From Pseudobacter ginsenosidimutans (lineage in GTDB: Bacteria; Bacteroidota; Bacteroidia; Chitinophagales; Chitinophagaceae), in assembly GCF_007970185.1 (NCBI RefSeq), contig NZ_CP042431.1, forward strand, positions 7,175,342-7,239,341: a stretch of DNA of 64,000 nucleotides, written 5' to 3'. Numbering within the stretch: position 1 is the first letter of the stretch; each line of letters begins with the position of its first letter. A program made the position numbers and the translations under genes. Positions 15,561 to 60,689 of the stretch are shown in pieces. The notes beneath the pieces are model-generated. The model ran no database searches, was not told the DNA's origin, and was given only the letters and a program-made list of their open reading frames with translations.

Positions 15561-15590
15561 AAGTGACAGGTTGTGACTAAGGGGAAGTTA

Positions 15591-15857
15591 CTCATTTTCC
15601 GGGGGAAAAACTTTGCTGGCTATTGCTGTGGTTTTCTGGGGTGATGGACGGTGTGGGATCGGGGGTGTATGCAATGGGGCTGACGAAACAAACCGACGCT
15701 TTTTATTAAGAAATGAGCTGGGGTTGGAGGGATGGGCGGTGGAGCTGGGGTGAGCTTCAGGGCTTTTGTTTCGAAGGCCCGTTTGCATACACCCGCCGAT
15801 CCCAGTGAGCATCTCGAAAGTACAGCAATGCAGGCACTGTTTTTCCCGGAAAATGAG
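15591..15857 (+). repeat. Palindromic element copy 1 (long-armed)
   Basis: An imperfect inverted repeat with arms of roughly 100 nt: the outermost 10 bases (15591-15600) are an exact complement of 15848-15857, and an inner block 15655-15673 pairs with 15784-15804 (TGTATGCAA/TTGCATACA at its heart). The loop side carries the family core AAACAAACC (15687-15693 region) and GCTTTTGTTTCGAAGGCCC (15762-15780). The same core occurs in two other copies at 59987 and 60518. It fills most of the 412-nt gap between the RmlD-like gene and the secreted protein; the rest (15858-15972) shows nothing recognisable. Confidence 0.85.
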
Positions 15858-15972
15858 TTGGGGATGGGGAATGGGGAAATGTGCATCAGCACAAGTAATG
15901 GCAGACGGGTAGATAGGCGGATGGTGGGTGAAACGCCGCGCCGATTGGTTGAGTATATGGCTACTTTGCGAA

Positions 15973-58818: not shown

Positions 58819-59973
58819 ATGCAAATATCCGTCTGGGAAAAGGAAAGCTTTTTTGCACCCACCGATGTGACTATCATCGGAAGTGGGCTCGTTGGGCTCT
58901 GGTGCGCATGGCATCTCAAGAAAAAAAGACCTGAAAGCCGGATCACCGTGCTGGACCGTGGCGTCATTCCAACGGGAGCCAGTACCCGCAATGCCGGCTT
59001 CGCCTGCTTCGGGAGCGTAACAGAACTGATGGCCGATAAAGAAAAAGCCGGTGAAGACGCCATGCTGCAACTGGTTGATATGCGTTTTCGCGGTCTGCAA
59101 CGAACCAGGAAAATACTCGGAGAAAAAGCCATCGGCTTCCAGTGGAGCAAAGGATATGAACTGATCGCAACTCACAAAGATCCGGGCAAAGCCCTGCTAC
59201 AGGATCAGATCGATTGGCTCAATGAAAAGATCTCCCCCATCGTCCGCTCCTCTCCCACTTATAAATTCGCCAACCGTAAGATCAAACAATTCGGATTCGG
59301 CGCCACCGCACATCTCATCGAAAACAAATTTGAAGGCACCCTGCATACCGGACAACTCTGCCAGCAACTGCTACAGCGCGTTCAGGCATTGGGTGTCACT
59401 GTACTTAATTCCATCTCTGTAGATCATTTTGAGAAAGGTCCTGAAGGCGTCAGGATCCATGCATCCTGGCCCGTCGGAAATACAACACAGGATTATACAT
59501 TCCATTCCAAACAACTCCTCCTCTGCACCAACGCCTTTGCCAGGCAATTACTGCCACAACTCGATGTTCAGCCCGCACGCGGACAGATCCTCGTTACTGC
59601 CCCTCTCGAAAATCTCCGCTTCAAAGGCAGCTTCCATTACGATGAAGGCTTCTATTATTTCCGCGACCTCGGCGATCGTATCCTCCTTGGAGGCGCACGC
59701 AACAAAGCCTTCCAAGAAGAGACCACCAGTGAAATGGACATCACAGACACCATCCAAAAAGAACTGGAACATTTCCTCACCAACTACCTGCTGCCAGGGC
59801 AGACCGTTACCATCGAAGATCGCTGGAGCGGTATCATGGGAATGGGAAGCGAGAAAATGCCAATCATCAGAGAAGTAGAGCCGGGGGTGTGGTGCGCAGT
59901 GCGCATGAGCGGCATGGGTGTTGCACTCTCTGCGGTGGTAGGAGAAGATATCTCATCCAAATTATTGAGTTGA
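58819..59973 (+). CDS. FAD-dependent oxidoreductase of the DAO family
   Basis: The 384-residue enzyme has the Rossmann motif VTIIGSGLVGLWCAWHL with acidic end VLDRG, the flavin-contacting TGASTRNAGFACFGS, LLCTNAFARQLLPQ, ARGQILVTAP and the C-terminal RWSGIMGMGSEKMPIIREV...VRMSGMGVALSAVVGE. It resembles glycine/D-amino-acid oxidases and N-methyl amino acid oxidases; the substrate is not known. Promoter unclear. Two palindromic repeats follow its stop. Confidence 0.9.
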   Translation: MQISVWEKESFFAPTDVTIIGSGLVGLWCAWHLKKKRPESRITVLDRGVIPTGASTRNAGFACFGSVTELMADKEKAGEDAMLQLVDMRFRGLQRTRKILGEKAIGFQWSKGYELIATHKDPGKALLQDQIDWLNEKISPIVRSSPTYKFANRKIKQFGFGATAHLIENKFEGTLHTGQLCQQLLQRVQALGVTVLNSISVDHFEKGPEGVRIHASWPVGNTTQDYTFHSKQLLLCTNAFARQLLPQLDVQPARGQILVTAPLENLRFKGSFHYDEGFYYFRDLGDRILLGGARNKAFQEETTSEMDITDTIQKELEHFLTNYLLPGQTVTIEDRWSGIMGMGSEKMPIIREVEPGVWCAVRMSGMGVALSAVVGEDISSKLLS

Positions 59974-59986
59974 TTTTTTTGTGAGG

Positions 59987-60138
59987 GCAAATATTGGGGG
60001 TAGGTGAACCGGGCTGTAAAACAAACCAACGCAGTTGGGTTTTCATTGGGCTTTTGTGGTGAGGACGAGCAATGGGAATGCTATGAGGCTTTAACGCTTT
60101 TGTTTTGAAGGCCCCGCTCACCTACCCCCAACATTTGC
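59987..60138 (+). repeat. Palindromic element copy 2
   Basis: Arms 59987-60025 and 60098-60138 form an imperfect hairpin; the outer arm (GGGGGTAGGTGA, 59996-60007) is fully matched by 60118-60129. The conserved core is GGGCTGTAAAACAAACC at 60011-60027 and GCTTTTGTTTTGAAGGCCC at 60096-60114. It starts 14 nt after the FAD oxidoreductase stop. Confidence 0.88.
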
Positions 60139-60517
60139 TAAGCCCTATGAATGTGCAACAATAATTTACTATGATGAGTGGAGCTTCTCCTATTTATAGC
60201 AGGAAATAGTGCAGCAGACCTGCATGTCTTCATGCGAGCTGCGCACTGAGTGAAAAAGAAGGGGAAAGAGTGCGTCACGCTGAGTAATTGAAACAGGGAT
60301 GCCTAGGGAAATTTATGAAAATGATAATGATGATGCATTCTACCGAAAAAAGAAATGGTAAAATGCAAAAAGTGAACAATTGCCAATTCAGAAAATAGTA
60401 GATAAGAAAAGTCGAAAACGAAAGAGAAAAGACGGATCTAAAGAATAAAGAAATAGAAAGATGCATGCAAACAATAAAATATGCTGAAACCAGCTCTACC
60501 ACAGCTCCGGGGCCATA
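60139..60517. other. Non-coding spacer between two palindromic elements
   Basis: About 380 nt, A-rich in its second half, with no credible ORF, promoter pair, terminator or RNA signature on either strand. It separates element copies 2 and 3, which point towards each other. Confidence 0.5.
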
Positions 60518-60666
60518 GCCCTGAAAGTGATATGAAAAACGGGCCTTGCAAACAAAAGCGATAAAGTTCCATAGCATTACAATCGCCCAATCTTTCCAAT
60601 CCAAAGCCGATAAGATATCCTCCCGCGGTGGTTTGTTTCACAGCCCGGTTTCATATCCTTTCACGG
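60518..60666 (-). repeat. Palindromic element copy 3 (inverted orientation)
   Basis: Arms 60518-60560 and 60628-60666. Read on the minus strand it has GGGCTGTGAAACAAACC and GCTTTTGTTTGCAAGGCCC, the same core as copy 2, and a loop alignable with copy 2 (shared AATGCTATG and GCTTTA-like blocks). The outer arms (GATATGAAA/TTTCATATC) are unlike those of copies 1 and 2 but complementary to each other. Confidence 0.87.
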
Positions 60667-60689
60667 CGGGAAAATACTTTAAGAATCGG

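Follow-up and report, generated by a model that had tools for sequence, protein, structure and literature searches.

The window, the whole 64,000-nucleotide stretch of Pseudobacter ginsenosidimutans DNA analysed here, contains three copies of a long hairpin element, two in the forward (+) and one in the reverse (-) orientation. Copies 2 and 3 form a facing + - pair beyond a gene at 58819-59973 (+), and copy 1 is found singly. The core of copy 2 (60011-60113, +) reads GGGCTG-nn-AAACAAACC, followed by the loop and by GCTTTTGTTT-nn-AAGGCC. Its left, or head, arm (59987-60010) is complementary to its right arm (60114-60138), and a tail that follows the family consensus occupies 60139-60160, with limits set by eye. 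Copy 3 has its core at 60542-60646 (-), with the head arm at 60647-60667 complementary to the right arm at 60520-60541. The core of copy 1 is at 15678-15779 (+), and its arms, at 15656-15677 (head) and 15780-15802 (right), are again complementary. A covariance model of the core (R1), from which the arms were excluded, recognizes copies 2, 3 and 1 at E values of 2.9e-23, 8.3e-23 and 1.7e-21, and thus confirms the three palindromic copies with a shared core that the initial annotation had described.

Every copy is laid out as head arm, core and tail arm, with a tail added on just one side. The core is 100-106 nt long in this genome and consists of a short stem, a TG/AAG internal loop and a loop of ∼60 nt. 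Only seven core pairs are predicted; the loop displays no consensus helix, and autocorrelation gave no clear peak for a ∼21-nt loop repeat. The tail consensus, ∼CACNCTGAATGTGCAGCAG, is confined to the tail side among 113 copies.

Host DNA next to the window copies is repeated in inverted form across the hairpin. The coding end of the upstream gene (59892-59967, +; ORF overlap 76 nt) aligns with a decayed inverted copy at 60159-60246 (-) in the spacer between copies 2 and 3; the mirrored match lies 43-119 nt from the core and shows 84% identity over 74 columns. The head-side flank of copy 1 (15590-15629, +) recurs inverted past the tail at 15822-15858 (-), at 48-88 versus 42-79 nt from the core, with 89% identity over 37 columns. 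Another + - pair, with cores spanning G000:C1:7174629-7175278, ends 63 bases upstream of the window start.

The hairpin family is real. Two exact core patterns, with seven matches each, together give ten distinct copies, each of which folds into a long hairpin. The covariance model, built from the core alone, without arms, to avoid circularity, finds at least 113 copies at E up to 1 in the genome of the window (G000; 7.8 Mb, one contig), a lower bound set by scoring 150 of 4198 first-look candidates. A re-scan of 66 G000 loci and the window gives 116 matches, which are the same 113 with the three window copies counted twice. Three copies in 64 kb had been taken to suggest hundreds per genome; the element is indeed multi-copy, and the extrapolated density does not hold, as 113 copies in 7.8 Mb amount to ∼0.9 per 64 kb. 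The initial annotation had also staked its idea of a maintained fold on copies beyond these three and on arms that keep their pairing as they vary; the genome has both.

A second model was built from 124 matches in loci of G000, G001, G002 and G004, which include repeat hits on one copy where loci overlap. It finds 111 copies in G004, a relative ∼91% identical to G000, 110 in G002 and 52 in G001, and no match in G003 or G005, both of the same genus. Among 394 genomes of the family, G179 has two copies and G287 a single weak match (E 0.006), and among 395 genomes of the phylum G000 is the sole match; this distribution beyond the genus is a lower bound, with ten candidates scored per genome and stricter filters used in searches of more than 40 genomes. 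One of the G179 copies (L217), from another genus of the family, has a near-perfect outer stem of >20 bp. A pattern scan of genome contigs returned 40 stretches, of which 32 come from P. rhizosphaerae or from one Chitinophagaceae MAG; the remaining eight, from unrelated organisms, are presumably chance matches. There are no Rfam matches at E up to 1 across seven loci (L001-L007), in keeping with the earlier statement that no named family is known with this layout, and searches of open-licence papers turned up neither the hairpin family nor repeats with host-derived mirrored spacers.

Arms are complementary to their own partners. Own-arm stem scores average 30.5, versus 11.9 for mismatched partners (113 copies), and 82 of the 113 copies exceed the 99th percentile of mismatched-partner scores, as do 17 of 25 copies from other genomes. 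The arms had been called unrelated between copies yet self-complementary; the complementarity stands, whereas wholly unrelated they are not: a loose consensus, ∼GC-AAAGGG-TATG-AA-GC, runs through them and is rich in G on its left side. At 103 copies orthologous between G000 and G004 (mean flank identity 90.8%), 40 of 1587 Watson-Crick arm pairs have changed on both sides and are still Watson-Crick, against a permutation mean of 2.5 and a maximum of 13 in 2000 permutations. Compensatory change in the arms, as proposed from the window copies, is therefore real. Within the core, double changes occur at all seven predicted pairs (columns 12-107: CG 94, UA 25; columns 13-106: AU 87, GC 31).

Copies are strictly ordered with respect to one another. 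The 75 clusters of G000 comprise 38 '+ -' pairs, 18 single '+' and 19 single '-' copies, and the 72 clusters of G004 comprise 39 '+ -' pairs, 16 single '+' and 17 single '-' copies. All close pairs thus face '+ -' (38/38 and 39/39, 77/77 together), and no '- +', '+ +' or '- -' arrangement is found within 2.5 kb in G000. The G000 pairs are 147-920 bp apart; paired cores are separated by 112-1931 bp. The two outer flanks of a pair show no mutual similarity, inverted or direct.

As in the window, head-side host sequence reappears in inverted form past the arms on the tail side; between a fifth and a third of copies show this detectably. With flanks of 28-165 nt, 64 of 224 copies score above the 99th percentile of cross-locus scores (160/224 are thus without an individually significant outer palindrome). 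With flanks of up to 600 nt the number is 43 of 224 (181/224 without), and 41 of these 43 matches lie at the mirrored distance. The signal is local: 19, 18, 18 and 12% of copies exceed the percentile in windows starting 20, 40, 60 and 80 nt from the core, 7 and 8% at 100 and 130 nt, and 1, 3, 0 and 0% at 160, 200, 250 and 300 nt, where 1% is expected throughout. The longest mirrored match (G000_3446096+) extends over 158 columns at 80%. Own scores >22 occur in 33.1% of the paired copies (n = 154) and 18.6% of the single ones (n = 70). For centres in element-free gaps the figures are 2.4% in divergent (n = 42) and 0.6% in tandem gaps (n = 162), and none of the 30 convergent centres scores as high. 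In G001, G002 and G179, 4 of 24 testable copies exceed the 99th percentile for inverted flanks.

An ORF on the head side is overlapped by at least 15 nt in 24 of the 41 mirrored matches, with its 3′ end included in 22 of the 24, and none of the 24 overlaps an ORF on the other side (15 are from G000 and 9 from G004, partly the same loci). Because the overlap is confined to the head side, copying probably ran from gene into spacer. In 132 pair halves the inverted-flank signal drops to background at about half of the spacer, and its reach rises with spacer length, to ∼146, 206 and 266 nt in three length classes; it is weak in spacers <320 bp, and a small excess at 400-600 nt (4.1% versus 1.0%, 98 tiles) fits the half-spacer pattern poorly. 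Since the signal ends near mid-spacer, a spacer looks like the inverted left flank followed by the inverted right flank, as if both neighbouring gene ends had been copied into it in inverted form.

The hairpins appear to be old residents of their present sites. Sixty-seven of the 75 G000 clusters are orthologous to G004 clusters, as judged from flanks of up to 1.5 kb, and the hairpin therefore appears to be mostly inherited by descent now; the elements seem inactive at present. Flanks are orthologous to a G000 or G004 element locus at 8 of 10 distinct G002 loci, 6 of 11 G001 loci and neither of the two G179 loci. The G001 orthologue of the window pair, L285, is likewise a pair, and its stem differs in sequence. 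Several mirrored matches are common to the same locus in both G000 and G004, which makes the matches of the two genomes partly non-independent. Mirrored copies of ∼80% identity have diverged further than the 91% identical flanks of G000 and G004, and the duplications that gave rise to them would on this comparison predate the split of the two genomes. Positional stability, strict '+ -' pairing and inverted flank copies are features that the initial annotation had overlooked.

Sites without the element are less clear. Eight G000 clusters have no counterpart among the G004 element loci, and BLAST comparison of these eight, three of them examined in detail, yielded no clean empty site or exact filled-empty junctions. 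At 927113, G002 lacks the hairpin and retains a tail-like sequence (by eye), and G004 has other palindromes; at 5454398, a deletion in G004 spans one core to the other. For one G000 pair, the orthologous unaligned interval measures ∼56 bp in G003, 72 bp in G005 and 250 bp in G001, with no model match. Where G000 has a single copy, G004 locus L297 (G004:C39:367500-369300) carries different palindromes formed from GTCGCTCGC, perhaps another repeat family.

We propose that the hairpins are DNA elements around which neighbouring DNA has been duplicated in fold-back (inverted) fashion, with the hairpin at the apex, a reading to which a probability of about one half is assigned. At a break, an element strand would have become attached to a DNA 3′ end, the joined strand would have folded back on its own stem, and a polymerase would have copied the flank. 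With the same strand on both break ends, rejoining would produce the order '+ spacer -', and a single copy would represent the one-ended outcome. The outer palindrome would decay later, as is assumed for the copies without a significant match, with selection and/or template-switch correction keeping the inner ∼20 bp paired. One strand on each side of a break, with fold-back, copying and rejoining, would yield both the strict '+ -' order and the two-sided mirrored spacers. That the hairpin is a new kind of genetic element which spreads in this manner, by capping broken DNA ends with the same hairpin strand on both sides, is a tentative suggestion; if true, the two gene ends, copied in inverted form between facing hairpins, would constitute an inverted target duplication and not the usual direct one. 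Perhaps the arms are part of the element and not of the copied flank, given that the palindrome is broken by the tail and that a consensus is common to the arms.

Fold-back inverted duplications have reportedly been described for large duplications in humans. The bacterial loci resemble these in having an inverted flank copy around a fold-back centre, but are short, numerous and arranged around one conserved element. Long complementary arms that are specific to each locus would ordinarily be taken to prove a folded RNA; in this family they show no RNA-like wobble and are accompanied by inverted copies of adjacent genes. Should the fold-back reading hold, there exists a repeat family tied to fold-back DNA copying, which would be a route to new bacterial intergenic DNA, and dozens of datable natural palindromes would be available for separating template-switch correction from selection.

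A less probable explanation is that a REPIN- or MITE-like transposon inserted as a hairpin-ended pair, and that template switching afterwards copied the flanks and corrected the arms. Inverted intergenic pairs resemble REP dimers; REP elements are 20-40 bp palindromes with GTAG/CGTC families and form dimers termed BIMEs (PMC3733652). The hairpins share with REP/BIME sequences their high copy number, intergenic location, frequent opposite-orientation pairs and preference for tandem and convergent gaps. They are not classical REPs, as had been noted, since a core of 100-106 nt plus arms, with its ∼60-nt loop, is well outside the 20-40 bp range. They also differ in having arms that change from locus to locus, a single pairing orientation and spacers that mirror flanking host DNA. 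Neither a GTAG nor a CGTC tag is present in the head or tail consensus; some spacers hold GTGCGTCA, which contains CGTC, away from the hairpin end. Two inverted hairpins and possible past mobility recall the REPIN/RAYT system, although the Y1 transposase gene of these genomes (see below) has no hairpin in the loci fetched around it and does not track the hairpins' presence. MITEs differ in that the hairpin pairs have no shared interior and their spacers resemble their own flanks: spacers of the 38 pairs share mostly short matches, and the longest among those listed joins two loci over 145 columns at 76%.

Several observations favour the transposon with template switching. The 40 compensatory changes are concentrated in 21 of the 103 copies, and in a G002 pair (C499) the arms of both hairpins resemble by eye those of the site A pair of G000, which is at a different locus. 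Quasipalindrome (template-switch) mutation makes and extends inverted repeats, gives compensatory double changes and, according to published work, can correct as well as lengthen stems (PMC8794818). This is a mutational process and not a repeat family, and as such it does not provide numerous loci with a conserved core. With a hairpin pair already in place, template switching accounts for the mirrored spacers, though not for the '+ -' order, and a transposon pair with template switching by itself leaves the half-by-half filling of the spacer from each flank unexplained. Furthermore, no target duplication is seen among loci that include no clean empty site, no transposase tracks the family in the places examined, and the loci of G000 and G004 are shared, not moved.

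A search for an enzyme or an autonomous element gave the following. The initial annotation had reported no transposase nearby, and in the places examined none tracks the hairpin family. A Y1 transposase (PF01797) was rejected as the driver, as it is present in all six genomes of the genus that were searched, including two without element matches, and nine fetched loci of ∼3 kb around the Y1 gene contain no hairpin copy. This Y1-transposase-like gene of ∼140-170 aa (L192, G000:C1:7347186-7347515, and L187-L191 in the set of six) lies between aromatic-pathway genes in what we take from the ORFs to be an aromatic-amino-acid operon; it is apparently domesticated and unrelated to the hairpins. Reverse transcriptase (PF00078) was rejected as well, being found in three of the six genus genomes and in neither G000 nor G001. 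An autonomous version with internal genes was discounted, since two wide + ... - intervals hold ordinary genes. No transposase was recognized among the ORFs in four of the larger spacers, which we take to encode GNAT, ASCH, flavoprotein and RibD-like reductase proteins and one unassigned product. One G004 pair spacer (L255, G004:C12:75273-80409) has two extra ORFs, presumably GNAT-like and ASCH-like, and the orthologous G000 spacer is only 493 bp long.

The hairpins may instead be host DNA-architecture sites comparable to BIMEs, acted on between gene ends by gyrase, a nucleoid protein or a structure-specific protein and retained for that reason; this too is regarded as rather unlikely. Placement in the genome is in its favour. 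Of 63 gap-assignable G000 clusters, 29 are in convergent gaps, versus 9 of 109 background gaps (p 1.9e-8, with simple ORF calls; a looser earlier count was 34/75). Hairpins are often situated just past a terminator-like sequence, which precedes the head arm in 36 of 113 G000 copies, against 9 on the mirrored side, and in 31 of 111 G004 copies, against 5. Stems and arms are also better conserved than loops and spacers at orthologous loci: on average the two sides of the core are 93.1 and 94.2% identical and the arms 92.4% (head) and 89.3% (tail), compared with 77.2% in the loop. Spacers of 34 pairs show 86.2% identity over the alignable 74%, and loops, by the same measure, 83.0% over 93.5%. The greater constraint on arms than on alignable spacer (92 and 89% versus 86%) suggests a present function, one that the fold-back account does not need. 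Avoidance of promoters could by itself produce the convergent placement, however, and two genomes of the genus do without any match.

The integron attC site is a folded DNA site found in cassette arrays beside the integron integrase. The hairpins are similar to attC in being folded DNA sites with variable complementary arms and unpaired marks of polarity; they differ from it in that they are scattered as single copies or facing pairs rather than lined up in cassette arrays, and in the stability of their loci.

Template switching alone, with palindromes that correct themselves and no selection, is improbable. Symmetric mismatches and the double changes are what such a process would leave, and it could also be invoked for the tandem duplication of the head (left) arm, which is seen in 17 of 224 copies versus 0 of 224 on the tail (right) side and which fits slippage at a DNA hairpin. 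Arms nevertheless diverge less than spacers, the core sequence is conserved, and the outer palindrome has decayed uncorrected, to ∼80% in the longest case. As for the loops, 54 of 103 match a G000 paralogue better than their own orthologue. General shuffling of loops between loci is not claimed, because loops diverge about as much as spacers do (83% versus 86%), and homogenization within pairs is clear in few cases, within-pair identity exceeding that of the orthologue in 9 and 10 of 36 pairs.

RNA folding, one of the two forms in which the initial annotation saw the hairpin as being kept, is not supported by the arm mismatches. Selection on an RNA would be expected to favour G-U, yet G-T is no commoner than A-C in the arms (37 versus 50 in G000, 50 versus 48 in G004), and one-sided changes from Watson-Crick pairs lead to G-T in 26 cases, to A-C in 31 and to other mismatches in 63; this wobble comparison stands without an in-genome RNA positive control, since a tRNA control gave too few tRNAs. 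Within RNA genes, 78.5% of two-step compensations affect G-U or U-G pairs, according to the same study (PMC8794818). Lacking an RNA-like G-U tolerance, the arms look to be maintained at the DNA rather than the RNA level, although equal G-T and A-C would also be expected if both strands were transcribed and selected. A structured RNA family or a set of 3′ UTR hairpins is accordingly the least probable of the explanations: the polar conserved core, its asymmetric internal loop and its covariation, with 24 U-G versus 2 C-A or A-C at columns 7-113, would suit an RNA, whereas the arms show no G-U tolerance, the loop is without a consensus helix, many copies lie beyond a terminator-like sequence and the seven loci have no Rfam counterpart.

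Smaller sequence features were also observed. A hammerhead-like CTGATGA string in some copies was set aside, as those bases vary. A two-tier G-quadruplex-like pattern is present on the element strand in 146 of 220 aligned cores and its C-rich equivalent in 0 of 220, counts that are uncontrolled for composition. A second short motif, GGGGAAAGAGTGCGTCA, which resembles the tail end (GTGCAGCAG), is found in either orientation at window positions 60258-60279 and in several other spacers.
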